Assembly (NCBI RefSeq): GCF_017301615.1
Contig: NZ_CP059066.1
Span: 682,001-746,000, forward strand
Direction of reading: 5' to 3'
Length of the DNA stretch: 64,000 nucleotides
DNA from: Koleobacter methoxysyntrophicus
Lineage (GTDB): Bacteria > Bacillota > Thermosediminibacteria > Koleobacterales > Koleobacteraceae
The notes under the pieces were generated by a model. The model saw nothing but the letters and a program-made list of their open reading frames with translations. It searched no databases and was not told where the DNA came from. Every line of letters begins with the position of its first letter. Within the stretch, counting starts at the first letter, position 1. Below, piece by piece: positions 18,761-59,562 of the stretch. A program made the translations under genes and the position numbers.

Positions 18761-19753
18761 TTACCATCTTGAGATATACGGTTTATATTCTTCTTCTCCT
18801 ATAAGATGTTTCTCGAGTTTATATAGTTCTAGACGAATTAACCTCCTGTAAGAAACTTCCCTTCCGAGTTTTCTATGCCTTATTGTTGTTTTTAATCTGT
18901 TATCGAATTCCTGAATAAATACCTTCTTTCCTCTTTCTTTCAGCAGGATTCCACCCATGTCTCTCTCAAAATCATTTTTAGTAATCATCTTTTTACCTAT
19001 CAAAGTGAAGATTAATCTATCAATAATTATCGGCTTGAAAATCTCTGCTATATCAAGATTCAATGTAAACCTTCTAAAATTTGTGGTATGCAGGTAGCCT
19101 ATTCTCGGGTCTAAATGGGTTTTGTAAATTTCGCTTAGTATAAGGGTGTATAAGAGGGAATTCCCGAAACTTATCAAAGCATTGAGTTCATTTCTGGGAG
19201 GTTTCCTGCTCCTATTATTGAACACAAAGTCCTCATTATCGATAATTGTATCGAACCCTTTATAATAATAGTCCCTCATATTACCCTCTATTCCCATAAG
19301 TTCGGAAGAATCACAGCAATTGTCTGTTTTGCCGATCAGGTTTTCAATTTGGGTAGAAATATCCTCCAGGTCTTTTCCCCTGTTTATATAGTATCTTAAT
19401 ACGTTTTGTATATTCTTCCCGCTGCCCCGAACAAAAGCCCGGGCAATTGCCAGCCTCTTTTCTATATCCAGGTAATGTTCAGATTGTTTCAAAGTCATAT
19501 AACCTGAATTAAGGTGTTCCCTCGGATAATATGACCCTATATAGTACCCGTAGTAATTAAAGAAATGAATCGTAATTTCTTTTTGCGAAGTTAATTCTAA
19601 AAATCTCTTGTTAAGTTCCAGTTCTCCAAATACGAAAATATCATTTATATCTTCTATGGGCAAAAATTTCTTACCTTCTTCCGTTTCAAAGTAAACTGTA
19701 TTATCTTTTCTTCTAATCTGACCATCATTGAAGATATATATATTCTTTTTCAT
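18761..19753 (-). CDS. cas1: CRISPR-associated endonuclease/integrase Cas1, type I-B
   Basis: Cas1 is the catalytic subunit of the spacer integrase. The 330 residues match type I-B Cas1 in length and pattern: MKKNIYIFNDGQIRRKDNTVYFE at the start, EDINDIFVFGELELNK, FFNYYGYYIGSYYPRE, then ALISFGNSLLYTLI with the metal-binding residues, and the His of DPRIGYLHT. The C-terminus has SYRRLIRLELYKLEKHLIGE. It follows cas4 by 13 nt in one operon. Unusually cas2 is not downstream; a transposase relic and an unrelated gene are. The frame is intact, so the protein could still work with the distant Cas2. Confidence 0.96.
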   Translation of the reverse strand: MKKNIYIFNDGQIRRKDNTVYFETEEGKKFLPIEDINDIFVFGELELNKRFLELTSQKEITIHFFNYYGYYIGSYYPREHLNSGYMTLKQSEHYLDIEKRLAIARAFVRGSGKNIQNVLRYYINRGKDLEDISTQIENLIGKTDNCCDSSELMGIEGNMRDYYYKGFDTIIDNEDFVFNNRSRKPPRNELNALISFGNSLLYTLILSEIYKTHLDPRIGYLHTTNFRRFTLNLDIAEIFKPIIIDRLIFTLIGKKMITKNDFERDMGGILLKERGKKVFIQEFDNRLKTTIRHRKLGREVSYRRLIRLELYKLEKHLIGEEEYKPYISRW

Positions 19754-45905: not shown

Positions 45906-45926
45906 GCCCGGTGCTTTAAACCGGGC
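45906..45926 (-). terminator. Terminator of the antiporter operon
   Basis: GCCCGGT-TTAAAGC-ACCGGGC on the minus strand followed by T6, some 145 nt beyond the last antiporter gene. Confidence 0.85.
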
Positions 45927-46072: not shown

Positions 46073-48187
46073 CTATAAGAACTTTATCCTAGGTGTATAC
46101 TGGATAAAAATGAACATTAGGATAACTACTACGACGGCGAAGATAAATACGCTTACATTCAGGTTTAAAACCCTCCTGAAGTGCTTAATCAAAAAACTGC
46201 TCATTACTTTTCCCGCCCGCTCGCACCTGTTTTTGAAAGGGCTTTCAATTTCCCAGGCAGTTTTTTCAAAGACTTCTTTTGCTCCGCTGCTTATGGGGCT
46301 GTGTTCAATAGTGTCATCAACCAGATGGAGCTTCTTGACCAAAGTTATAAAGAATTTAGCTATACCCCTGTATCTGGAATTTATTATAAAATCAATCAGG
46401 TTGAATCCCGAACTAACTATATAAAACAAAATCTTAACAGCAAGATTATAAAAATAATCGATAATTGAATCGATTGAGCTAAATCCGGAATTGACCATGT
46501 AAAACAACAGCCTGCCTGCGGGGTTATAAATCAAATATTCGATGCTCAACCATGAAGGCAGCTTTTTGTCAAAGAGATTAAAATACCTGAATATAATATA
46601 TATAATCCCTCCTATTGCAAGGGTTAGTAGAGATGAGAGGATATTGTGAAAATCAAAAAAAGCAAAATTCGATGCATTTCTTACTATCTGTTCATGACCG
46701 TAAAAAGATGACCCCAGTACCGCATATATTAACATATTATTGATAAGGAAATTGGGCAGAACACCTACAAGCACTACAACCCCTGAAAGGACATAAAGGA
46801 CTCCCAGAATCAAGTGGTATTTACTTCCTGGGTTTTTGACCTCCAGGTCCGGTGCCGGTTTGCCGAGGAATACACCCACAAAGAGCCTTATAAGGTAGCA
46901 GAAGGTAAGGCTGCCGGTTATTTTAAATATCTTTTCTCCCAGAAGGAATAGATTGTTTCCCGACAGGTGATATACCTCCAGTATAGATTCATGCAAAAGG
47001 GTTTTGCTTGCAAATCCGTTAAATCCCGGAAACCCTATTATCCCGAGAACGGCTACAACAAAGGCAAAGGTAGTTACCGGAAGGAGTTTTGCAAATCCCC
47101 CCAGCCTCTTCAAACTCAGTTCATGGGTCCTGAAGTATATGCTGCCTATGGTAAGGAAAAGGGTAACCTTGAAAACGGCATGGTTTAAAATATGGTAAAT
47201 TGTTCCAACAAATGCCATTCCCCCGTGACTTCCCAGATAGGCCGCTGCCCCTATCCCGACCAGTATATAACCCATCTGGCTCATACTGCTGTATGCCAGT
47301 ATCCTTTTAGCATTATCCTGGAACAGAGCCATAAAAGCCCCTAAGGACATGGTCATAAAACCTATCAACATTACTGCCGACCCAAGATAGCTGTCCCAGC
47401 CGAAGATCTGGTTTGTAGTCTTCAATACTCCAAAGGCCCCGGCCTTTATCAAGATACCCGATAGAAGGGCACTGGCAGGAGAAGGGGCTACGGGGTGGGC
47501 TTTAGGAAGCCATATGTGAAGGGGAACCATACCCGCCTTTACCCCAAAACCTGTAATCAGCAGGGCAGCTATTACGTATTTCATGTTCCCGAGGCTGTTT
47601 ATCCCTGCTGCCAAGACGGCAAAATCCAGGCTTCCCAGTTCATAAAACAGTATAAACACACCCATCAAAAGGACCAGGCCCCCGCCGATGGCCATATAAA
47701 GGTAGTATTTTCCGGCCTTCAGCGCATCAGGGGTTTCATCATGGATTACCAGAACATAAGAAGTAAAGGTCATCATTTCAAAGAAAATAAACAGTGTAAG
47801 CAGATCTCCGGAAAGGAATATTCCCAAAGTGGCTCCAAGGGTAAGAATGAAAAACATCCAGTACCTGTTCTTCTCATGGCTGTGGGATATATATTCAACG
47901 GAATAAAGGGATACCAAAAACCACACAAAGGCTGTTATAAGGGAAAGGATGAAACCGACCATATCCACCCTGAAGGTTATCCCTGAACCGATAAAATCCG
48001 ATAGTTTGTAAGTATGGCCGCCTTCAAGGGCAAAAGGGAACAGGGCAATAACAAATATCAGGGTTAATCCGCTTACACCCGTTCCTAATACATCCCTGAC
48101 ATATTCCCTTTTCTTTCCTATAAAATAAAGGAAAAATGAAATTAATATCGGCAGGCCGATCGATAATATAATAAGCAAATGTGCCAT
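46073..48187 (-). CDS. Large antiporter subunit (ND5/MrpA/MrpD family), 704 residues
   Basis: A proton/cation-pumping membrane subunit with about 14 core helices plus a C-terminal extension. The conserved Glu is in LFIFFEMMTFTSYVLVIHDE, the helix-7 lysine in FGVKAGMVPLHIWLPKAHPVAPSPASALLSG, and the next lysine in LIKAGAFGVLK. Residues beyond 480 are extra: a long tail with an internal near-repeat at about 560-610 (LLFYMVNSGFSSIDSIID, ILFYIVSSGFNLIDFIIN) and a final membrane helix. Last gene of the operon and the longest of four homologous subunits. It is not followed by hydrogenase or dehydrogenase genes. Confidence 0.9.
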   Translation of the reverse strand: MAHLLIILSIGLPILISFFLYFIGKKREYVRDVLGTGVSGLTLIFVIALFPFALEGGHTYKLSDFIGSGITFRVDMVGFILSLITAFVWFLVSLYSVEYISHSHEKNRYWMFFILTLGATLGIFLSGDLLTLFIFFEMMTFTSYVLVIHDETPDALKAGKYYLYMAIGGGLVLLMGVFILFYELGSLDFAVLAAGINSLGNMKYVIAALLITGFGVKAGMVPLHIWLPKAHPVAPSPASALLSGILIKAGAFGVLKTTNQIFGWDSYLGSAVMLIGFMTMSLGAFMALFQDNAKRILAYSSMSQMGYILVGIGAAAYLGSHGGMAFVGTIYHILNHAVFKVTLFLTIGSIYFRTHELSLKRLGGFAKLLPVTTFAFVVAVLGIIGFPGFNGFASKTLLHESILEVYHLSGNNLFLLGEKIFKITGSLTFCYLIRLFVGVFLGKPAPDLEVKNPGSKYHLILGVLYVLSGVVVLVGVLPNFLINNMLIYAVLGSSFYGHEQIVRNASNFAFFDFHNILSSLLTLAIGGIIYIIFRYFNLFDKKLPSWLSIEYLIYNPAGRLLFYMVNSGFSSIDSIIDYFYNLAVKILFYIVSSGFNLIDFIINSRYRGIAKFFITLVKKLHLVDDTIEHSPISSGAKEVFEKTAWEIESPFKNRCERAGKVMSSFLIKHFRRVLNLNVSVFIFAVVVVILMFIFIQYTPRIKFL

Positions 48188-48203
48188 GGGTCCACCCCTT
48201 CCT

Positions 48204-49667
48204 TTAGCTGAATAACAATTTTGCTGCCGTCCTAGCCAATTTTATTAAAGTGTGTTCATATATCCCTCCTACAACTATCCCAAAGGTCAATACCATCATA
48301 GGCCCCATCATCGAAACGGGGACCTCGTTGAATTTCAACTTGATACCAGCCGTTTCCTCCTGTTTATCAAAAAAGGCATTAATAATTATGGGCAGGAAAT
48401 AAACACCATTTAGCAAACTGCTGATCAAAAGAATTATCAAATAGAAGGGCATATCTGCATCCAGACTTCCCAATCCCAGATACCATTTGCTTATAAAGCC
48501 GTTTAACGGAGGGATTCCGATCATAGCCAGAGAAGCTATGGTAAAACATATCATGGTAAGGGGCATCTCCCTCCCTATCCCTTTCATTTCATCTATATTG
48601 GTTTTGCCGGTTTTATGTTTAATGGCGCCGGCACATAAAAACAGGGTGCCCTTCATAAAGGCATGGCTGAATATATGAAAGATGGCACCGAACAATGCCC
48701 GTTCATTCAAAAGCGCTATGCCTAGCAGTACATACCCTATCTGGCTTATAGAAGAATAAGCCAAAAGCCTTTTCAGGTTTTTCTGGCTGAGGGCAACTCC
48801 TGATCCGAACATTATAGTTATGGCTGCTGTTATCCTTAAAAAGGTCCCCCATCCTACCTGATTAAACACATCAAAGTGATATATATTGTAAACCAATCTT
48901 ATAATGCCGTAAATCCCGACTTTTATTGTTATACCTGAAAGCAGACTGCTTATTGGAGAGGGTGCAATGGGATGGGCGTCAGGCAGCCATATGTGCAGCG
49001 GGAAAAGCCCTGATTTAATACCGAAACCGATAAAAAAGGTTGCAAATATCGGCCAGGGAAGGGTACTCGCCCTGTTGAGCAGTTGAAGTTCTTTGAGATC
49101 GACGGTACCCAGATAATAGTAGGTCATAGATATGCCGAAAAACAAAGACAGGCTTCCCAGCAGGCACATAAACAGATATTTATTTGATGCCTCAACGGCC
49201 TCTTTAGTTTCGCTGTGGACTATAAGGATATAGGGGACAAGGGATGCTAACTCGAAAAATATAAATAAACTTAATAAACCTCCGGTAAGGGCTACCCCTA
49301 AACACCCTGACAGGGCAACCAGAAATGCGGCATAAAACCGGCTCTGGTAGTGCTTGTTTTCCATATATACAAAGGAATATATAGTTACCACTACCCAAAG
49401 AAAGCATGTAATCAGTGCCAAAAACAGGTCCAGCTCATCTACGCGGAAGGTGAGCCCCATAGGCGCCATCAGATATTTCAACCTTTTTTCAATAACAATA
49501 CCGGCTTCAATTGCGGGAAGCATTAATAAAACGGAAACAAAGGAAAACAGGGTAATCCCTAAAGTAATTGAATTCCGCAGCAATCTGTTCCTTTGCGGTA
49601 AAAAATATACTATTGGCGCCCCTATTAAGGGCATCCCTACTGCTGTCAGAGGTAGATAATTTAACAT
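48204..49667 (-). CDS. Large antiporter subunit (MrpD/NuoN family)
   Basis: A 487-residue polytopic protein. Key positions are the Glu in LFIFFELASLVPYILIVHSE, the lysine in FGIKSGLFPLHIWLPDAHPIAPSPISSLLSG and the lysine in TIKVGIYGIIR, with a later AYSSISQIGYVLLGI helix. These are the residues of the proton path in MrpD and complex I subunits. It lies between two homologues in the same operon; 16 nt to the next gene. Confidence 0.92.
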   Translation of the reverse strand: MLNYLPLTAVGMPLIGAPIVYFLPQRNRLLRNSITLGITLFSFVSVLLMLPAIEAGIVIEKRLKYLMAPMGLTFRVDELDLFLALITCFLWVVVTIYSFVYMENKHYQSRFYAAFLVALSGCLGVALTGGLLSLFIFFELASLVPYILIVHSETKEAVEASNKYLFMCLLGSLSLFFGISMTYYYLGTVDLKELQLLNRASTLPWPIFATFFIGFGIKSGLFPLHIWLPDAHPIAPSPISSLLSGITIKVGIYGIIRLVYNIYHFDVFNQVGWGTFLRITAAITIMFGSGVALSQKNLKRLLAYSSISQIGYVLLGIALLNERALFGAIFHIFSHAFMKGTLFLCAGAIKHKTGKTNIDEMKGIGREMPLTMICFTIASLAMIGIPPLNGFISKWYLGLGSLDADMPFYLIILLISSLLNGVYFLPIIINAFFDKQEETAGIKLKFNEVPVSMMGPMMVLTFGIVVGGIYEHTLIKLARTAAKLLFS

Positions 49668-49768
49668 CTTTCTCCCCCTCCCCTTATTGCGAATACAATA
49701 GTCTTAACCAGATGAAGTTTCCAAAATGGATCTAAAAGCCGTTTCTGCACCAAAATCATAATTAAATT

Positions 49769-51208
49769 TTAATAGAAAATTGAGACTATGCTGTCGATAA
49801 GGCCTTTGGTAATTGACGGAAATATGCCTAAAGCCAATCCAGTTACCGTCAGAATCACAATGGGAATCAGCATCGTTCCGGGCGGTTCATTAAACTTTTT
49901 ATTATCCTTCTTCTGGCTGAAAAAGGCATTCACGGAAACCGGGAACAGATAACAAGCCGTCAACAGGGCACTTATTAGAAGGATTACTACATAAAGTACT
50001 CGGCCTGTTTCTAGACTGCCTATTGAAAGGTACCATTTGCTGACAAATCCGTTTGTAGGAGGAATCCCCGTAAGCCCCACCGATGCAATGGTAAAGCAGA
50101 GCATTGTAATCGGCATATCCTTTCCTATTCCCTTCAGCTGAGAAACCTCTGACTTTCCCGTCATAACAAGGATGCTTCCGGCACAGAAAAACAGCGTAAT
50201 CTTCAGTACAGCATGGTTTACTACGTGCATAAGGCCGCCGGTAAAACCGCTCCGGCTGAAAAGGAATATACCCAGAAGGATATAACTCAGCTGACTGACG
50301 GTAGAATAAGCGAGCCGTTTTTTAAGATTTTTCTGGGTAAGGGCGATTAAAGAGCCGAGTAGTATAGTCAAACTCGCAGCAGTCAGAGCGATTTTATTGA
50401 TACCTGTTTTGACTAGTATTTCATTTCCAAATATATAATAGGTAATGCGTATTATTGCAAATATGCCGGATTTAACCACAGCTACGGCATGGAGCAGTGC
50501 ACTGACGGGGGTAGGAGCAACCATTGCCGATGGGAGCCATGAATGAAGGGGCACCACCGCTGCTTTAACCCCAAAGCCGATAAAAAAAGCCATGAATAAC
50601 AGTTCAATCCCCGGATATATCCTGCCAAAAATCCCTCCCGGGGCAAAATTAAGGCTACCGCTGATGGCGAATGTGGTGATAATTGCCATAAGGACCAGGG
50701 CTGCCCCTGAAAAGGAATATATCAGGTACTTTTTGCCGGCAGCGAGGGACTCAGTGCTCTCTTTGTGGATTACCAGAGGATATGTCCCCAGGGTCAGGAG
50801 TTCATAAAACAAATAGAATGTAAAGAGGTTGCCGGCAAAGGCTATACCGAGGGTTATACCCAGGCACAGGGTGAAGAAAACGAAAAATCTCTGTCTGCGC
50901 TCTCCATGGCTCATATAACCCGAGGCATAAAATGCCGTAAAGACCCACAAAATCGATACCAGGAGGCCGAAATACAGCCCTAATGGATCTACCCTAAATT
51001 CTACTGAAAGAAATTCGTTTACTTCAAAGAGATTGACGGCAGCAGGGCTTCCTCTCCCGCTCAGGTAAAGGGAAATAACAAGTAAGGCATTCAAAAATGC
51101 TGTTATAATAGCTATTTGACTGAAAAATCTCTTACCCCATACCGCGATTATGCAGCTCGAAATCAAGGGCAATATCACTGCCAAAACCGGTAGAAGCCTT
51201 AACAGCAT
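49769..51208 (-). CDS. Large antiporter subunit (MrpA/NuoL N-terminal-like)
   Basis: A 479-residue polytopic protein. The Glu is in FTFYLFYELLTLGTYPLVIHKE, the lysine in FGVKAAVVPLHSWLPSAMVAPTPVSALLHAVAVVKSG. SALLHAVAVVKSG is closer to NuoL/MrpA subunits than the DAHS/DAHP type of its neighbours, so this one may occupy the MrpA-like position. A 101-bp gap separates it from the next gene, which has its own ribosome site. Confidence 0.9.
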   Translation of the reverse strand: MLLRLLPVLAVILPLISSCIIAVWGKRFFSQIAIITAFLNALLVISLYLSGRGSPAAVNLFEVNEFLSVEFRVDPLGLYFGLLVSILWVFTAFYASGYMSHGERRQRFFVFFTLCLGITLGIAFAGNLFTFYLFYELLTLGTYPLVIHKESTESLAAGKKYLIYSFSGAALVLMAIITTFAISGSLNFAPGGIFGRIYPGIELLFMAFFIGFGVKAAVVPLHSWLPSAMVAPTPVSALLHAVAVVKSGIFAIIRITYYIFGNEILVKTGINKIALTAASLTILLGSLIALTQKNLKKRLAYSTVSQLSYILLGIFLFSRSGFTGGLMHVVNHAVLKITLFFCAGSILVMTGKSEVSQLKGIGKDMPITMLCFTIASVGLTGIPPTNGFVSKWYLSIGSLETGRVLYVVILLISALLTACYLFPVSVNAFFSQKKDNKKFNEPPGTMLIPIVILTVTGLALGIFPSITKGLIDSIVSIFY

Positions 51209-51229
51209 GTATTGTTTCCTCCCGTCTTT

Positions 51230-52711
51230 TTATAGTAAACCATTAACTGCTTTATGAATAACATCCAGTATGACCTTCGGGTATACCCCTAATGCAACTA
51301 TCAGCAAAGAGAATATTATAAGGGGCATCAATGCTAAACCTTCGGCCTCACGGGCATTTTCAAGCCGGACATTTTCATCCTTCCCGAAAAACGCCGATAT
51401 GACAACAGGCAGATAATACCCCGCATTCAGCAGGCTGGAAATTAAAATTATGATAAGGAATAAGGGTTTAGATGCTTCAAGGCTTGCAAGCCCTAAATAC
51501 CATTTGCTGTTAAATCCTGCCAATAAAGGGATTCCCACCATTGACAGGGCGCTGACGGTAAAGGCTGCCATGGTAACGGGCATCTTTCTGCCGATACCTG
51601 CCAGATGGGGAATTTCCCTTACCCCTGAACCGTGAATTATATTCCCTGCAGCCAGAAAGAGGTTGCTTTTTGTCAGGGCATGGTTCAATATATGAAATAC
51701 TGCCCCCACCATGCCCATTTCATTTTTAAGACCGATCCCTAAGAATATATATCCCATCTGAGTTACGCTCGAATAAGCCAGCATCCTCTTTATATCGGAC
51801 TGCATTATAGCCAGGACAGAACCTATTAGAATTCCCATTGATGCCATCAGTGTTATAAGGCTCATGACGGGCAATTGAGAAATGATTTTTGTACCGAATA
51901 TAACAAAGAGTATTTTAATTAGAGAAACCGCATACACCTTCAGCACAAGGCCTGAAAGAAAGGCACTTGACGGAGTGGGAGCCTGAGAATGGGCATCGGG
52001 AAGCCAGATGTGAAGTGGAAAAAGGGCAGCCTTAAGGCTGAAACCTGCCACCAGGAGGCTTAGGGCTGCAAGGATGTTCCTTGGATATATGGAAGCTGTC
52101 TCGAGCAGCTCCCTATGGATAATTGCAAAATTAAGATGCCCGGTTATGCCGTAGATCAACGCTATAGCAAATAAAACCATCCCCGACCCAAGGGAACTTA
52201 AGATGAGGTATTTTATAGTCGCCTCTATGGAAAACCTCTCATTTTTAATTGAAATTATCGCACAGGAAGCTAAAGAACAAATTTCAACAAAGACGTACAG
52301 GTTGAAAAGGTCCCTTGTAAAGACTATTCCCAGCATTGACCCCATCAGCAGAAGGAGAAGAGAATAATAATACGAAACCTTTGAGCCCTCTACCTCCTCT
52401 TCAAGGGTCTTCCCTGAATGAAGAACTATCAGCAGGCCAGTTCCTGTCAAAACAGTTCCCACAAAGGCTGAAAGGCTGTCAACGTATAGCTCAATGCCAT
52501 AAGGGGGGGGCCATCCACCCAGATAATATATTATCGGCCCGATACTGCCGGTCTTGATTAAGGTGTAAAGACAGAGAATAAATGATAATGCATTGCTTCC
52601 TAAAGCAGTAACAAAACATGTTGTATTTTTACCCCTGATAAGGGGGCATATAAAGGCTGATGATAACATGATTATTATTATAATAACAGGTATACTGTCA
52701 TTCATCTTCAT
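51230..52711 (-). CDS. mnhD: Large antiporter subunit MrpD/MbhH-like
   Basis: A 493-residue polytopic protein. The Glu is in NLYVFVEICSLASCAIISI, the lysine in GFSLKAALFPLHIWLPDAHSQAPTPSSAFLSGLVLKV. It directly follows the MrpC/NuoK-like gene (14-nt overlap), the position of mrpD/mbhH, so this is the orthologous D subunit; the three following large genes are the additional ones. Confidence 0.93.
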   Translation of the reverse strand: MKMNDSIPVIIIIIMLSSAFICPLIRGKNTTCFVTALGSNALSFILCLYTLIKTGSIGPIIYYLGGWPPPYGIELYVDSLSAFVGTVLTGTGLLIVLHSGKTLEEEVEGSKVSYYYSLLLLLMGSMLGIVFTRDLFNLYVFVEICSLASCAIISIKNERFSIEATIKYLILSSLGSGMVLFAIALIYGITGHLNFAIIHRELLETASIYPRNILAALSLLVAGFSLKAALFPLHIWLPDAHSQAPTPSSAFLSGLVLKVYAVSLIKILFVIFGTKIISQLPVMSLITLMASMGILIGSVLAIMQSDIKRMLAYSSVTQMGYIFLGIGLKNEMGMVGAVFHILNHALTKSNLFLAAGNIIHGSGVREIPHLAGIGRKMPVTMAAFTVSALSMVGIPLLAGFNSKWYLGLASLEASKPLFLIIILISSLLNAGYYLPVVISAFFGKDENVRLENAREAEGLALMPLIIFSLLIVALGVYPKVILDVIHKAVNGLL

Positions 52712-53078
52712 GCTGTCTTCTCCTTATTTCAGTAATTTCATCTATATCAACCGTTCCGTAAAAGTCATAGAGCCTGATGGTTAAAGCCAGGGCAAAGGCT
52801 GTTATGCTTACCGCCACGACTATCCCGGTAAGTATCAGGGCCATCGGCAGCGGATTGACATATCCACCACCCTCCGCAGATAGGTCTATAATAGGGGCTC
52901 TCTTCCCTTTGACATAACCATAAGAAACAAATAGAAGGAAAACAGCCGTATCCATTATATTCATACCTATGAGCTTTTTGATAAGGTTTGAGTTATAAAG
53001 CATCGTATGAAAACCGATAATAAACAATATTACAGCCCCTGTGTAATAATAATTTGAGATAAGGTTATTAAGAATCTC
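52698..53078 (-). CDS. mnhC: Antiporter subunit MnhC/MrpC (NuoK-like)
   Basis: A 126-residue protein with three membrane helices, NuoK-like: NLIKKLIGMNIMDTAVFLLFVSYG and PLPMALILTGIVVAVSITAFALALTIRLY. ATG 53078 is chosen because GGAGGG lies 5 nt upstream; it overlaps the end of mnhB by 11 nt. Confidence 0.92.
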   Translation of the reverse strand, partial: EILNNLISNYYYTGAVILFIIGFHTMLYNSNLIKKLIGMNIMDTAVFLLFVSYGYVKGKRAPIIDLSAEGGGYVNPLPMALILTGIVVAVSITAFALALTIRLYDFYGTVDIDEITEIRRRQHEDE

Positions 53079-53505
53079 CATTACGGCCCTCCTCAGCAAA
53101 CGAAGAAAACAGTATAAACATGGTACTGCAGACTTTAAAGCCCAGTGCTATATTCAGCAGAAGAATAAGCCCTCCGCTTATCAATGCTCCGGGTGTCCCG
53201 AGGGGTATCCCTGCCCCTTTATTTGTAAGGAAATTACAGCCCAGGAATAAAGCTATTAACCCAAGCAGTACATACCAAAGCATGGTTATGCCCTCTATTT
53301 TTGAGGCCAGGCTGTACGGAAACACATCCTTTGAAGGTTTTAAACCATAGCTGAGGGCATATAGAATAAAACTCGCTGCAATTATAGTACCCCCTGCAAA
53401 ACCGCCGCCCGGTGAAAGGTGGCCGTGAAATACAACATAAATACCGTATATCTGAACAAAGGGTATTATACCTCTGGCAACCGTCCTTAAAATAATGCTG
53501 TCCAT
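53068..53505 (-). CDS. mnhB: Antiporter subunit MnhB/MrpB
   Basis: A 145-residue membrane protein of the MnhB family: VARGIIPFVQIYGIYVVFHGHLSPGGGFAGGTIIAAS is diagnostic, followed by three more helices. Corresponds to MbhF in archaeal membrane hydrogenases. Confidence 0.94.
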   Translation of the reverse strand: MDSIILRTVARGIIPFVQIYGIYVVFHGHLSPGGGFAGGTIIAASFILYALSYGLKPSKDVFPYSLASKIEGITMLWYVLLGLIALFLGCNFLTNKGAGIPLGTPGALISGGLILLLNIALGFKVCSTMFILFSSFAEEGRNGDS

Positions 53506-53515
53506 GTCAATCCCT

Positions 53516-53785
53516 TTACCTCCTTTTCAGCACCGTTATTACGGCCAGGCTTGCTGCAAAAAGCACGGTGGCTTCTCCAAGGGTATCAAAAGCTCGATAA
53601 TCCAGCAGAATAGCTGTTACCGAATTAACAATCCCCGTATCTTCTACCGCGTCTTCCGTATATCTTTCTGTTATTTCATTATAAGACGGAACTTTCTCGG
53701 ATCCAAAGGTCGGCATTTCCTCTACGGTAATGACAAGGATATAAGCAAGAATGATTATAATTATCAGGGTAATTGCCGGCTTCAT
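53516..53785 (-). CDS. MbhE-like antiporter subunit (MrpA C-terminal part)
   Basis: An 89-residue protein with an N-terminal helix, a soluble loop, and the segment IVNSVTAILLDYRAFDTLGEATVLFAASLAV that matches the last part of MrpA or the separate MbhE of archaea. Overlaps the MbhD-like gene by 4 nt (ATGA type). Confidence 0.9.
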   Translation of the reverse strand: MKPAITLIIIIILAYILVITVEEMPTFGSEKVPSYNEITERYTEDAVEDTGIVNSVTAILLDYRAFDTLGEATVLFAASLAVITVLKRR

Positions 53786-54024
53786 TTCTCATCTCTCCCC
53801 GCAGTCCTCTTTATAGTTCCAATAAACAGGAGCGTAGTAATTCCCGCTCCAACAGCCGCTTCTGTTATAGCGAGGTCCGGGGCATTCAGCTGCTGCCACA
53901 GAACTGCCATTATAAGGCTGTAGCCCGTAAAAATAACCACAGCAGAAAGGAGGTTCTTTGTCCTGGCAACTGCTATAGAACACGCTATCAGGATAATCAA
54001 CAGCATCATATTAAATATTTCCAT
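53782..54024 (-). CDS. MbhD-like antiporter subunit (DUF4040)
   Basis: An 80-residue protein with about three helices; VVIFTGYSLIMAVLWQQLNAPDLAITEAAVGAGITTLLFIGTI is typical of the MbhD/DUF4040 domain that in Mrp operons is part of MrpA. As a separate gene it follows the Mbh arrangement. Overlaps mnhG by 14 nt. Confidence 0.92.
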   Translation of the reverse strand: MEIFNMMLLIILIACSIAVARTKNLLSAVVIFTGYSLIMAVLWQQLNAPDLAITEAAVGAGITTLLFIGTIKRTAGRDEK

Positions 54025-54343
54025 CAGGCTTTTCCTCCTTGTTTATAAAAAAACTGCCCTCTGCCATCGGTATCCCCCTTTTATATGCCGCTTTAGATAT
54101 TACATGGGCAGCCGTAGGGTTGGTCAACCACACAAATATAATGACGAATAACAGCTTGACAGAATCCCACGACAACCCGCTGATAAACATAAGTGAAACC
54201 AATACCAGCCCCAAACCGAGGGTATCGCATTTGGTGGTTGCATGGATGCGGGTATACACATCGGGGAACCTTAAGAGCCCGATAGTCCCTACCGTTAAGA
54301 AGAATATACCCGTAAAGAGGAGCGTCCCGACCAAAACCGTCAT
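54011..54343 (-). CDS. mnhG: Antiporter subunit MnhG/MrpG
   Basis: A 110-residue protein with three helices; LTVGTIGLLRFPDVYTRIHATTKCDTLGLGLVL is the MnhG signature. Overlaps mnhF by 4 nt. Confidence 0.95.
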   Translation of the reverse strand: MTVLVGTLLFTGIFFLTVGTIGLLRFPDVYTRIHATTKCDTLGLGLVLVSLMFISGLSWDSVKLLFVIIFVWLTNPTAAHVISKAAYKRGIPMAEGSFFINKEEKPDGNI

Positions 54344-54621
54344 TTTATGCCCTCCTCTTCCTTTTTATTTTCACCTACCATATAATCTGCAACCATAATG
54401 GTTGTCAGGAAGCTTATAAGTGCATAAACCAAAGCTACATCGAGAAAAAAGGTCTTTTCAAAGATGAAGGAGACCAGGGAAATCAATACAACGGTCTTGG
54501 TTCCGATTACATTAACCGCAACCAGCCTATCGGCAATAGTAGGTCCTCTTGCCCCTTTATAAAGGCAGAGGGATATGGTTATGACAAGGATTATACATGC
54601 AGAAATCAGCAGGTTATTCAC
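54340..54621 (-). CDS. mnhF: Antiporter subunit MnhF/MrpF
   Basis: A 93-residue protein with three helices and the family stretch KGARGPTIADRLVAVNVIGTKTVVLI. Follows mnhE by 2 nt. Confidence 0.94.
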   Translation of the reverse strand: MNNLLISACIILVITISLCLYKGARGPTIADRLVAVNVIGTKTVVLISLVSFIFEKTFFLDVALVYALISFLTTIMVADYMVGENKKEEEGIK

Positions 54622-54623
54622 TA

Positions 54624-55088
54624 TTAACCCTCCATCTTCATTATTTTTTCCTCTATACCCCAGTCAGTTAAACCGAGGGCATTTTCTTCTGTCAGAACAT
54701 GAACCAAAAATTCGTCACCCTCCACATCTACTGTTAAGGTCCCAGGGGTTAAGGTTATGGAAGTTGCCAGCATTACCTTCCCGACATCGCTCTTCAGCTT
54801 AGTGCGATATTTGACCATCCCGGGTGAAATGGGCATTCTCGGGGATAATACTATTTTAGCTACATTTATATTAGCTCTCACTATATCTACTACCAGATGG
54901 AATAGATAATCCAGCAAAATATAGGGTTTAGATATTTTAATCCCTGATATTTGATATTTTTTAAACATCCGGGTATATACCGCTGATACTGATAAGCTGA
55001 TAAGACCCCCGATAAAAATATGCTGAAAACTAAAACTCCCCGATGTTATAAGCCAGAATGTTAAAAGAATAACAAAAAAGGCTACCAT
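54624..55088 (-). CDS. mnhE: Antiporter subunit MnhE/MrpE
   Basis: A 154-residue protein with two N-terminal helices and a soluble part with the MnhE signature KSDVGKVMLATSITLTPGTLTVDVEGD. First gene of the operon, about 80 bp downstream of a sigma-54 promoter. The order E-F-G-MbhD-MbhE-B-C-D equals mbhA-H of archaeal membrane-bound hydrogenases. Confidence 0.95.
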   Translation of the reverse strand: MVAFFVILLTFWLITSGSFSFQHIFIGGLISLSVSAVYTRMFKKYQISGIKISKPYILLDYLFHLVVDIVRANINVAKIVLSPRMPISPGMVKYRTKLKSDVGKVMLATSITLTPGTLTVDVEGDEFLVHVLTEENALGLTDWGIEEKIMKMEG

Positions 55089-55211: not shown

Positions 55212-55236
55212 AAAAAAACCGGGACTTCCCCGGTTT
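55212..55236 (-). terminator. Terminator of the AcoR-like activator gene
   Basis: AAACCGGG-GAAGT-CCCGGTTT on the minus strand followed by T residues. It lies between the activator binding sites and the sigma-54 promoter, so activator transcription ends before the antiporter operon. Confidence 0.85.
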
Positions 55237-55299: not shown

Positions 55300-55378
55300 T
55301 GTTCCATAACGGAACATGATTTCTGAAAATTCGAAGCTCCTCGCCGTTCTATTTTAGAACAATGTTCTATTATGGAAC
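55300..55378. promoter_or_regulatory. Three palindromic activator sites (GTTCYATWWYRGAAC)
   Basis: GTTCCATAACGGAAC (55301-55315), GTTCTATTTTAGAAC (55346-55360) and GTTCTATTATGGAAC (55364-55378) share the pattern GTTCY-N5-RGAAC. They lie about 120-200 bp upstream of the -24/-12 promoter, the normal distance for enhancer sites of sigma-54 activators; the last overlaps the 3' end of the activator gene. The likely binder is that activator's Fis-type helix-turn-helix. Confidence 0.75.
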
Positions 55379-57382
55379 GCTTTCGATCCCGTATTTTTTC
55401 ATTTTTCTATACAGGGTATTTCTACCAATACCTAAAGACTCAGCAGTTTTTGTTATATTCCCGTTAAAAATCTGCAGTGTCCTCACAATCTCTCTTTTTT
55501 CAACTTCTTCAAGGCTAAGAGGCTCATCTCCCAGCATATTATTGAGAAAAGGAGTTCCGCTATTCCTTATTGAGTCGGGCAGATGCTCTTCTGTCAGCAC
55601 ATCTCCATCAGCCAGGTTGATAGCCTGTTGAAGCACATTCTGTAATTCCCTCACATTGCCCGGCCATGAGTAATGCATCATAGCTCTTAAAAATTTCCGG
55701 TCTATAGTACTTACAGCTTTGCCCATATGCTCCCCCAGTTTTTCTTTAAAATGGGCTATAAGGATAGGGATATCTTCTTTTCTTTCCCTGAGAGGCGGGA
55801 TTTTAATCGGCATAACATTTAACCGGAAAAACAGGTCCTGTCTGAAGTTCCCTGCCCTGACCTCTGCTTCCAGGTCTTTATGGGTAGCGGCTATAACCCT
55901 AACATCAACGGGTATAACCTTATTACCCCCGATTCTGGTTATCTGCTTGGTTTCCAGGACCCTTAATAGGTGTGCCTGGGCATCCAGCGGCATATCCCCT
56001 ATTTCGTCAAGGAATATGGTACCGCCGTCGGCCAGTTCAAATTTACCCGGGCGCCCTCCTCTTTTTGCTCCCGTAAAGGCCCCCTCCACATAGCCGAAAA
56101 GTTCACTGGCTACCAGTTCCCGCGGAATTGCCCCGCAGTTTAAAAAAACAAAGGAACCGTCTCTCCTGCTGCTGAAATTGTGTATGGCCTGGGCAAACAT
56201 CTCTTTACCGGTGCCGCTTTCCCCCATCAAAAGCACCGTTGTAGTATTGGCTGCAGCAAGCTTGGCAAGCCGTATTGCTTCTTTTATCTTCTGGCTCTCC
56301 CCCAGTATATCATCAAAACCAAACCTGGCATTTGCACCGACCATTCTGTTAACCAGATTGTGAACCGTTTTTATTTCCCTTATAGTGATAACGGCTCCTG
56401 CAACCTTTTCCTTTTCCATCAGTATGGGGGTTGCAGTAGTAATGCAGCGAATTGACCTCTGTCTTGTTTCAAGCACCATCTCTTCTTCCGAAAACCCCTT
56501 ACCTGTTTTAAGGACATTAAGGATTTTCCTGGTATTGGTGTCAAAAAGCCTTTTTATATTCTGACCGATTATCTCATCCTCTCTTATACCGACCATTTTT
56601 CTCGCAGTATAATTTATTTCTGTTATCCTCCCCTTTTCATCTACAGACACCAGACCCTCGGATATCGATTCCATAATGGCATGGAAGTGCTTAACGGCCA
56701 TAGCAAGCTGTTGATTTTTTTCATCTATCTCCATCTGATTTTCAATGGCCTCGACCGCTGCCACAACCATACCCAGGGTATGGGGATGAACTTTATCATA
56801 TTCCCCCGTCATGCTGAGCACCCCTATAATCCTGCCTCTGGTATCTCTTATAGGGCATGCTGAACTGGTCCATATATGATAATCCCTGCAGTAGTGTTCT
56901 GCAGCAAATACCTGCAGTGGAGTGCCCGCTACAATGGAAGTACCTATGGCATTAGTCCCTATCCTCTGTTCACTGCAATTATCACCGGGAAAAATATTTA
57001 AGCCTTTGCGGCCTTCTATTATATCTTTATCTCCCAGGGTAACCAGGATGTATCCCTCATCATCGGCAAGGCGGACTATAAATCCGGAATTTTCCACAAT
57101 ACTGTAAAGGCTGGACATAAAGGGTTTGGATATATTGATTAACTTTTCCATTTTCTTGTATCTCTTTTCTATTTCTTCTGTATGGAGTTTGTCAGGTCGT
57201 TTTGAAGTATAAGGGTCTACACCATAAGAGCGGCTTCTTTTCCACGACTCGGCAATAACCGGCCTTATTACGTGGTTATTGATTTCTCCTGTCTCTATAA
57301 AGGCCCGCCATGCTCTGTAGAATTCCGGTTTCTTTTTTAAAATAACCTGACCCGGCACAATATCCTCCCCCTTTCCTGCCAT
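55370..57382 (-). CDS. AcoR-type sigma-54-dependent activator
   Basis: A 670-residue enhancer-binding protein. The N-terminus (residues 1-60, IRPVIAESWKRSRSYGVDP) and GAF-like domain (about 75-215, with GDNCSEQRIGTNAIGTSIV and TSSACPIRDTRGRIIGVLSM) are of the AcoR type. A PAS domain follows at about 230-340. The AAA+ domain (about 355-590) has GESGTGKEMFAQAI, GAFTGAKRGG and [20 protein letters not shown]. The C-terminal Fis-type helix-turn-helix is NITKTAESLGIGRNTLYRKM. Its target is very probably the antiporter operon just downstream, which has a sigma-54 promoter and three palindromes. The signal sensed is unknown. Confidence 0.92.
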   Translation of the reverse strand: MAGKGEDIVPGQVILKKKPEFYRAWRAFIETGEINNHVIRPVIAESWKRSRSYGVDPYTSKRPDKLHTEEIEKRYKKMEKLINISKPFMSSLYSIVENSGFIVRLADDEGYILVTLGDKDIIEGRKGLNIFPGDNCSEQRIGTNAIGTSIVAGTPLQVFAAEHYCRDYHIWTSSACPIRDTRGRIIGVLSMTGEYDKVHPHTLGMVVAAVEAIENQMEIDEKNQQLAMAVKHFHAIMESISEGLVSVDEKGRITEINYTARKMVGIREDEIIGQNIKRLFDTNTRKILNVLKTGKGFSEEEMVLETRQRSIRCITTATPILMEKEKVAGAVITIREIKTVHNLVNRMVGANARFGFDDILGESQKIKEAIRLAKLAAANTTTVLLMGESGTGKEMFAQAIHNFSSRRDGSFVFLNCGAIPRELVASELFGYVEGAFTGAKRGGRPGKFELADGGTIFLDEIGDMPLDAQAHLLRVLETKQITRIGGNKVIPVDVRVIAATHKDLEAEVRAGNFRQDLFFRLNVMPIKIPPLRERKEDIPILIAHFKEKLGEHMGKAVSTIDRKFLRAMMHYSWPGNVRELQNVLQQAINLADGDVLTEEHLPDSIRNSGTPFLNNMLGDEPLSLEEVEKREIVRTLQIFNGNITKTAESLGIGRNTLYRKMKKYGIESVP

Positions 57383-58183: not shown

Positions 58184-58311
58184 ATCTCTTATCAAGAGAG
58201 GTGGAGGGAAGGGCCCTATGAAACCCGGCAACAGCTGCGCAAAAACGCAGAATTGTGCCAATTCCTGCAGTGGGTAAACTAAATTTTACACCACTGAAAG
58301 ATGAGAGAGGT
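58184..58311 (+). promoter_or_regulatory. SAM-I riboswitch (S-box)
   Basis: A clear SAM-I aptamer: P1 strands CTCTTATC (58186-58193) and GATGAGAG (near 58300), the conserved AGAGAGGTGGAGGGA, GGGCCCTATGAAACCCGGCAAC and GTGCCAATTCC. SAM binding stabilises P1 and lets the following terminator form; without SAM the 3' P1 strand (GAGAGGTT) can pair with AACCTCTT of the terminator as antiterminator. Genes are therefore off when SAM is plentiful, consistent with methionine or homocysteine supply. Confidence 0.97.
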
Positions 58312-58392: not shown

Positions 58393-59562
58393 ATGTCAAA
58401 ACAGGTTAAATCCTACGAAGAAATCAATGAAAAGATCAAGAAGGGTGAAGCGGTTGTACTAACCGCAGAGGAAATCATCGAAATGGTTGAAGAACAGGGT
58501 ATAAAAGAAACGGCCAAGAAAGTTGATGTGGTTACAACGGGAACCTTCGGACCGATGTGTTCTTCAGGAGCATTTCTAAATTTCGGCCACAGCGATCCAC
58601 CCATAAAGATGTCAAAGGTATGGTTGAATGATGTCCCTGCATATACCGGCCTTGCTGCCGTTGATGCATATATCGGAGCCACCGAATTATGTGAAAGAAA
58701 CGGCAAAACCTACGGAGGAGCCCATGTTATAGAAGACCTGATATCGGGCAAGAAAATAAAATTAAAGGCTATAGGGTCCAGAACTGACTGCTACCCCAGA
58801 AAGGAAATAGAGGGCTATATACATAAAGACACCCTTAATGAATGTTTCCTTTTCAATCCCAGGAATGCTTACCAGAACTATGCAGCTGCCACTAATTCAA
58901 CGGATAGAATTCTTTATACCTATATGGGTACGCTCCTGTCCAATTTCGGTAATGTAACCTATTCCACTTCAGGCCAATTAAGCCCTCTTTTAAATGACCC
59001 TGAATTGAGGACTATCGGGATAGGTACAAGGATATTTCTAGGCGGGGCTCAGGGATTTGTTGCATGGAACGGAACCCAGCACAACCCTTCAAGACAGAGG
59101 TCGGACAGCGGGATTCCGGTAGGACCGGGCTGCACCTTGAGCCTGATAGGTAACCTGAAAGATATGAGCCCTGAATTCATAAAAGCAGCTGTGTTTCACA
59201 AATACGGGGTGAGCCTGTTTGTAGGTGTTGGGATACCTATTCCCATCCTAGATGAAGAGATGGCAAATTTCGCGGCCGTCAGGGACAGGGATATTAAAAC
59301 GGTTATTCTGGATTACGGCATCCCCAGCCGGAACAGGCCGCTCATTAAAACAGTAAACTATGAAGAATTAAAATCAGGGGAAATCGAACTAAACGGAAAA
59401 AGGGTGCCTACAGCTCCCCTCTCCAGCATATATAAGGCACGTCAGATCGCAGAGATACTGAAAGACTGGATTAAAAAGGGAAAATTCCTGCTCCAGCAGC
59501 CGGTAGAGCAGTTACCTAAAGATATTCAATTTAAGCCTTTAAATATAGAGGAGTGTGAATAA
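58393..59562 (+). CDS. DUF39 homocysteine biosynthesis protein
   Basis: A 389-residue protein of the DUF39 (HcyBio) family, shown in methanogens to help make homocysteine from aspartate semialdehyde and sulfide. Two cysteines, 56 (GTFGPMCSSGAFLN) and 133 (GSRTDCYPRKE), fall where the archaeal proteins have their pair of important cysteines as I recall. Other conserved segments are FLGGAQGFVAWNGTQHNP and DYGIPSRNRP. It follows a SAM riboswitch and precedes NIL/ferredoxin and UPF0280 genes, the known functional partners. Start ATG with AAAGGAGG upstream. Confidence 0.93.
   Translation: MSKQVKSYEEINEKIKKGEAVVLTAEEIIEMVEEQGIKETAKKVDVVTTGTFGPMCSSGAFLNFGHSDPPIKMSKVWLNDVPAYTGLAAVDAYIGATELCERNGKTYGGAHVIEDLISGKKIKLKAIGSRTDCYPRKEIEGYIHKDTLNECFLFNPRNAYQNYAAATNSTDRILYTYMGTLLSNFGNVTYSTSGQLSPLLNDPELRTIGIGTRIFLGGAQGFVAWNGTQHNPSRQRSDSGIPVGPGCTLSLIGNLKDMSPEFIKAAVFHKYGVSLFVGVGIPIPILDEEMANFAAVRDRDIKTVILDYGIPSRNRPLIKTVNYEELKSGEIELNGKRVPTAPLSSIYKARQIAEILKDWIKKGKFLLQQPVEQLPKDIQFKPLNIEECE

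Follow-up and report, generated by a model that had tools for sequence, protein, structure and literature searches.

Operon layout and electron-transfer genes

A stretch of 64,000 nucleotides from Koleobacter methoxysyntrophicus (contig NZ_CP059066.1, positions 682,001 to 746,000), here called the window, carries an operon for an Mrp-type antiporter with four antiporter-like subunits (APLS) and no electron-transfer genes of the complex-I or Mbh type. The genes were re-called and typed (Table 1). The operon comprises eleven minus-strand genes, read from 55088 to 46073 in the order MrpE-F-G-MbhD-MbhE-B-C, followed by the four APLS, named P4, P3, P2, and P1 following transcription order. Most junctions are overlaps or gaps of <25 bp, with 101 bp between P3 and P2. 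Searches with Pfam identified MrpF, MnhG, MbhD, MbhE, MnhB, a 4L/NuoK/MrpC-like protein, and four proteins of the family PF00361 (Proton_antipo_M). Chance does not explain the assignment, given Pfam E-values between 1e-11 and 1e-72 and the recurrence of the layout across many genomes. An earlier note on this DNA, made from the sequence alone, had equated the order E-F-G-MbhD-MbhE-B-C-D with mbhA-H and counted four large pump subunits; the typing with Pfam and NCBIfam has borne out both statements. Among the matches listed for the large subunits, only NuoM (TIGR01972) on P2 passes the curated NCBIfam cut-off, by 4 bits, and the automatic names L, M, N, A, and D are therefore not to be trusted for them. 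The closest solved relatives of MrpC, MrpF, MbhD, and MbhE are those of the membrane-bound hydrogenase (MBH) and the membrane-bound sulfane reductase (MBS); the MrpC-like subunit aligned with MbsG (1e-28), MbhG (1.5e-21), and MrpC (1.6e-11).

Table 1. Features of the operon and its flanks, in window coordinates (aa, amino acids)
Feature	Position	Strand	Basis
MrpE/MbhA-like subunit, 154 aa	54624..55088	-	NCBIfam MrpE models, best 2.3e-30
MrpF/MbhB-like subunit, 93 aa; Asn in place of MrpF Asp35	54340..54621	-	PF04066 9.9e-16; MbsB/MbhB alignments
MrpG/MbhC-like subunit, 110 aa	54011..54343	-	PF03334 5.3e-31
MbhD-like subunit (= MrpA C-terminal part), 80 aa; conserved APDxAxxE	53782..54024	-	PF13244 1.5e-21; 6cfw_D 2.4e-9
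MbhE-like subunit (= MrpA C-terminal part), 89 aa; conserved DTLGE	53516..53785	-	PF20501 3.3e-11; MbsE, MbhE, MrpA alignments
MrpB/MbhF-like subunit, 145 aa; genome's only MnhB	53068..53505	-	PF04039 2.9e-29
MrpC/MbhG-like subunit, 127 aa; Asp-Thr...Phe vs MrpC Ser-His37...His40	52698..53081	-	PF00420 1.8e-24
P4, APLS 1, MrpD/MbhH-like, 493 aa; key residues E143, K227, K258, K403	51230..52711	-	PF00361 7.4e-67; MbhH 1.7e-72
P3, APLS 2, 479 aa; key residues E136, K215, K246, K391; MrpA/NuoL-type TMH8 histidine H240	49769..51208	-	PF00361 1.3e-62
P2, APLS 3, 487 aa; key residues E139, K218, K249, K394	48204..49667	-	PF00361 9e-72
P1, APLS 4, 704 aa; key residues E137, K217, K248, K395; C-terminal extension: TM15, lateral helix, TM16	46073..48187	-	PF00361 5.5e-57; AlphaFold2; Foldseek
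26-aa tandem repeat in P1 lateral helix, residues 554-605	46373..46528	-	Self-match score
First lateral helix of P1 as predicted (76 residues; pLDDT low, about 60-76)	46316..46543	-	AlphaFold2 model
Terminator-like hairpin between upstream regulator and MrpE	55216..55236	-	Pattern scan
Terminator-like palindromic hairpin 3' of operon, T-runs on both strands	45906..45926		Pattern scan

The genome is closed (3.10 Mb, 100% complete) and was searched as a whole, with control genomes giving matches for all families used (PF00361, MnhB, PF00146, PF01058, PF00346, and PF00374). Exactly four PF00361 matches were obtained, which are P1-P4, and the single MnhB match is the MrpB-like gene of the operon. 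Proteins of the NuoB, NuoD, NuoH, and [NiFe]-hydrogenase types gave zero genome-wide matches (PF00146, PF01058, PF00346, and PF00374). An electron-transfer module of the complex-I or Mbh type is thus missing from the operon and from the whole genome, and the possibility that it is encoded elsewhere in the genome was rejected. The absence of hydrogenase and dehydrogenase subunits stated in the earlier note therefore holds for the operon and, for these types, for the entire genome. The note had added that oxidoreductase subunits encoded elsewhere and co-purifying with the complex would make it a respiratory-type enzyme; this route to a refutation is partly opened by Rnf, a ferredoxin-driven ion pump that the note had missed. 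A complete rnfCDGEAB lies at about 1.98 Mb, 1.25 Mb away from the operon at about 0.73 Mb. Downstream of it are NusG_II, a Gx transporter, Maf, and RadC, as in relatives that carry P genes at that place, and the slot beside the cluster is free of P genes here.

The same genome encodes F-type ATPase c subunits with a Na+-binding signature (GQG...AETTGIY) and a separate V-type ATPase. The Na+ type was called from Q in helix 1 and AETTG in helix 2, which we take to mark Na+ c rings. The two rotary ATPases lie at about 1.508 Mb and 1.484 Mb (G000:C1, L113-L117). The F-type enzyme has one single-hairpin Na+-type c and one double-hairpin c with AQTTG in its second hairpin (Glu replaced by Gln), and the V-type proteolipid is part of the second rotary ATPase.

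Residues of the subunits and the extension of P1

In the cation module, MrpF D29, MrpC T75, the MbhD Glu, and the MbhE Asp/Glu are kept, the last two belonging to the cation exit path. All four APLS have retained the Glu of transmembrane helix (TMH) 5, the Lys of TMH7 and TMH8, the His/Lys of TMH11, and the Lys of TMH12. The extra TMH8 histidine, reported to be specific to MrpA and NuoL (PMC7419157), is present among the four in P3 only, and the C-terminal extension with a lateral helix and a sixteenth transmembrane helix (TM16) in P1 only. The lateral helix and the TMH8 histidine, which occur together on one subunit in MrpA, are thus split here between P1 and P3. A TMH8 histidine is found in the third APLS gene of 34 of the 41 four-APLS operons scored by motif.

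The P1 AlphaFold2 model was built from 65 sequences, is numbered without Met1, and has a mean predicted local distance difference test score (pLDDT) of 87.3. It predicts TM15 at 512-534, a 76-residue helix at 548-623, a second helix at 634-672, and TM16 at 677-702. Foldseek searches with the model placed MrpA chains on top, 7qru_A first and then 9A6H and 6Z16. The extension contains the 26-residue tandem repeat, which scores 65, whereas 200 shuffles reached 34 at best. A three-APLS Clostridium P1 model has a shorter lateral helix, of 41 residues, than the one predicted here. The median length of the P1 tail, counted from the TMH12 Lys to the C-terminus, was 243.5 in P4-P3-P1 operons (n=16) and 297 in P4-P3-P3-P1 operons (n=39; Mann-Whitney p 6e-8, relatedness not corrected for), and 341 in the Rnf-linked P4-P2-P1 operons. 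Lengthening of the tail with one added APLS is supported within the P3 series only; simple scaling with APLS number over all operons was not supported.

Related operons and neighbouring genes

A scan of genome contigs gave 552 confirmed relatives, of which 79 loci were kept. Operons with a captured 3' end contained four APLS in 39 cases, three in 16, two in 2, five in 1, and six in 1, with the cation module unchanged over the whole range. The survey proposed in the earlier note has therefore removed the rarity that the note implied: four is the most frequent APLS number in the related operons that were recovered, and the layout, rejected as rare or unique, is common among anaerobic clostridia. 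P1 was found in 46 of 299 drawn genomes of the phylum (32 of 210 genera). Most four-APLS relatives, from Lachnospiraceae and kin, have the order P4-P3-P3-P1. Their two P3 paralogues form two separate position-specific clades, and their fourth APLS therefore arose by duplication of P3. The exact order P4-P3-P2-P1 of the window recurs in a genome of the same order (G002) and in three genomes of family f24 (G044, G085, and G197). Four-APLS sets thus come in at least two compositions, with P3 duplicated or with P3 plus P2. In the trees, also proposed in the earlier note, the P1 family forms a separate clade (support 99), and P4, P3, and P2 group with MbhH and MrpD in a different branch (95). MrpA, NuoL, and HyfD share one branch (98) that contains none of the four window APLS.

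Two further sets of APLS were encountered. The loci L022 and L023 (G027 and G029) encode APLS-related proteins of 1285-1291 amino acids beside Ech/Mbh-like hydrogenase genes. Plasmid pB of Sinorhizobium meliloti (L107) carries a nuo operon with four APLS, namely NuoM, NuoN, and two D-type subunits, one of them with the TMH8 histidine; no gene annotated NuoL was present within the stretch inspected.

Flank clustering and queries with E. coli rsx have revealed rnf genes immediately preceding the operon in metagenome-assembled genomes (MAGs) of soda-lake Syntrophomonadaceae and in G030. Altogether, rnfCDGEAB is directly upstream and co-oriented in 18 relatives of the phylum from nine families, G030 and G034 counted in (families f10, f14, f15, f52, f66, f67, f97, f111, and f116). 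This is not so for the window operon. The loci at which rnf genes, complete where the contig permits, directly precede the operon are L151, L154, L156, L158, L159, L161-L165, L169, L170, L184, and L193, and further L018, L024, L026, L033, L035, L036, L039, and L040. Just after P1, the Rnf-linked operons usually have a gene for ApbE, a flavin transferase that serves Rnf. In L155 (G113), L157 (G275), and L019 (G034), Rnf is followed by P2-P1 alone, without a cation module, and G034 (98% complete) has no MnhB and no APLS besides P2-P1. No P3 was found in the Rnf-linked operons. The Rnf-linked P2 form one clade in the larger tree (25 rows, support 96) with four unlinked members, three of which come from G108, G072, and G030, whose Rnf-linked operons lack P2. 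These genomes carry the orthologous P2 at another place, so that P2 seems to be needed even outside the operon. Beyond its own order, the window P2 has its nearest relatives among the Rnf-linked P2; a first tree hinted that it belongs within their clade, a placement not borne out by the larger tree, in which it stands outside.

In 'Ca. Contubernalis alkaliaceticus' (Dethiobacteria), the Rnf genes HUE98_01685-01710 lie beside an antiporter block, HUE98_01720-01765, and the report gives the two adjacent blocks without joining Rnf and antiporter (PMC10608574). A review of RNF does not mention Mrp (PMC12174285). A limited literature search found no paper describing the operon linkage of Rnf and Mrp; the papers found name both systems separately. 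The gene linkage points to a connection of the two machines that is so far unexplored. It is the more surprising result, but no property of the gene order in the window genome. In family f22 (L171 and L177-L183), MrpE is directly preceded by the gene of a protein with two RnfG-like flavin mononucleotide-binding domains, and at L183, the one locus inspected for it, a NusG_II protein follows P1.

Upstream of the window operon, beyond the terminator-like hairpin, lies a gene for an AcoR-like sigma-54-dependent activator (55370-57382, minus strand). An S-adenosylmethionine riboswitch (RF00162, 88.4 bits) at 58186-58307 on the plus strand precedes an open reading frame (ORF) of 389 amino acids at 58393-59562. 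A Cas1-like ORF at 18761-19753 on the minus strand was recognised by eye only and has transposase-like ORFs nearby; a search beside it for a CRISPR array found none.

Interpretation and comparison with known systems

The operon probably encodes a stand-alone group 3 Mrp antiporter in which the four APLS belong to one complex and would serve a low-gear H+/Na+ exchange. The earlier note had left the choice between four pump subunits in series and two alternative complexes; the series is favoured because there is one Na+ module, the order of the genes is fixed across relatives, the P3 copies of Lachnospiraceae fall into separate clades, and three genomes without P2 in the operon keep a displaced orthologue. 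Rnf and the Na+-signature c subunits in the same genome were also counted for a stand-alone antiporter. In the proposed complex, E, F, G, MbhD, MbhE, B, and C would make up the cation module, placed at one end, with P4, the MrpD/MbhH-like subunit, docked on it. P3 and P2 would lengthen the arm, and P1 would cap and brace the far end through its lateral helix and last transmembrane helix. The membrane potential may then drive protons inward along the arm while Na+ or another cation is pumped outward. In the published coupling model each APLS is one coupling point for one proton, giving about 2 H+/Na+ for an Mrp with two APLS (PMC7419157). By extension of this model, four APLS could raise the ratio to about 4 H+ per Na+ at most. 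Such a low gear would allow a weak proton-motive force to keep a large Na+ gradient for a Na+-type ATP synthase, or the reverse. The clostridial series from two to six APLS on the same cation module, without a redox module, could allow a direct test of the proposal from structural work that the APLS number sets the protons coupled per ion.

Several observations weigh against this assignment. The position of MrpF D35 is Asn in the window and in 63 of 67 F sequences of the family, and the positions of MrpC H37 and H40 are Thr and Phe; family-wide, H37 is mostly replaced by T or S, and H40 by Y or F in 67 of 68 C sequences. As two published Na+-path positions are altered throughout the family, the ion could differ. 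The P1 extension is modelled with pLDDT values mostly of about 60-76 and short stretches <50, and tail length is uncorrelated with APLS number when all operons are taken together (Spearman -0.06, n=98). The Rnf adjacency in relatives hints at a possible redox partner.

This last point leads to a different reading, in which the four-APLS complex is a membrane extension of Rnf, its electron-transfer module, joined to it physically or by tight functional coupling. The co-oriented rnf genes in the 18 relatives and the soda-lake MAGs, with ApbE usually downstream, would fit such an enzyme, as would the operons of Rnf and P2-P1 only, the adjacent locus tags in 'Ca. Contubernalis alkaliaceticus', and the genes downstream of rnf that the window genome shares with relatives. 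However, rnf and the operon are unlinked in the window genome, P3 occurs in none of the Rnf-linked operons, the window P2 is outside the Rnf-linked clade, and the majority of P1-bearing operons are not Rnf-linked. Adjacency is also not contact, as Rnf and Mrp can cooperate through Na+ and H+ gradients alone. An extension of Rnf, the main rival reading, is unlikely for the window. A specific version, which we consider rather improbable, takes Rnf and the multi-APLS arm as one ferredoxin:NAD+ oxidoreductase, with Rnf replacing the NuoB/D/H-type module and driving, or being gated by, a complex-I-like row of APLS. Its simplest form would be Rnf-P2-P1 and its full form Rnf-cation module-P4-P2-P1, with the window operon a derivative whose rnf is unlinked. 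Should the widespread linkage be physical, energy-limited anaerobes would have a respiratory enzyme of new architecture.

That the APLS form two alternative complexes sharing one cation module, for example P4-P3-P1 and P4-P2-P1, is suggested by complete operons of both types in relatives, the former in Clostridium and the latter in many genomes. It is very doubtful in view of the single cation module, the fixed order in one operon, the same four-gene order in G002, G044, G085, and G197, and the retention of both P3 clades in Lachnospiraceae. Among group-4 hydrogenase-related complexes, some receive electrons from partners that are encoded apart from them (PMC6349859), and the complex of the window operon might be driven by another soluble oxidoreductase module unrecognisable by the families searched. 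Those complexes retain NuoB/D/H homologues, which are absent from the window genome, and no such genes adjoin the stand-alone operons of relatives, so that this proposal deserves hardly any weight. The stand-alone four-APLS antiporter accordingly remains the favoured reading, and the earlier interpretation as a whole is partly supported. The operon, common among clostridia yet poorly described, is a variant of group 3 Mrp with mechanistic leverage.

Among known systems, complex I differs in its peripheral arm and NuoH, both of which are lacking here. Complex I variants with a fourth APLS come from a 2018 study by Chadwick et al., which PMC7419157 cites; they reportedly have a lateral-helix insertion on the terminal subunit. 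These variants likewise have four APLS and a lengthened lateral helix, but they are quinone-linked dehydrogenases, whereas the window has no peripheral arm. The MBH and MBS arms of Pyrococcus furiosus (6CFW and 6U8Y) have subunits A-H in the same order as the window and are the best Protein Data Bank sequence matches for its MrpC, MrpF, MbhD, MbhE, P1, P3, and P4. In contrast to them, the window has no hydrogenase or sulfane reductase module and three APLS more than MBH; the NuoB/NuoD/NuoH-type and [NiFe] large subunits of MBH, MBS, and Ech are absent from the genome. Canonical Mrp of groups 1 and 2 (6Z16, 7QRU, and 7D3U) shares the cation module, the Glu/Lys relay of the APLS, and a lateral helix and last transmembrane helix on the terminal APLS. 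It has two APLS, and its MrpA is a single chain with N- and C-domains that also unites the lateral helix with the TMH8 His, features which the window divides between P1 and P3. Fused MrpA domains are missing in the window, and MrpF D35 and MrpC H37/H40, as expected of group 1, are replaced by N, T, and F. The group 3 Mrp of P. furiosus (mrpEFGBB'CD; PMC8415708) has in common with the window the EFG-B-C-D order, separate MbhD/MbhE-type domains, and the lack of MrpA and of a redox module. Group 3 operons lack mrpA and have mrpD-type subunits alone, at times in several copies. The window fits this group in its complete E, F, G, B, and C cation module and in having mrpD-type subunits only, no mrpA, and the MrpA C-domain as MbhD/MbhE. 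It differs from the P. furiosus Mrp in having four APLS instead of one and in the replaced MrpF D35 and MrpC histidines. A plasmid operon of Peptoclostridium acidaminophilum (WP_025436688 to WP_025436695), annotated as antiporter and proton-conducting subunits, has the order E-F-G-MbhD-MbhE-B-C-P4-P3-P1 and differs from the window operon in lacking P2.

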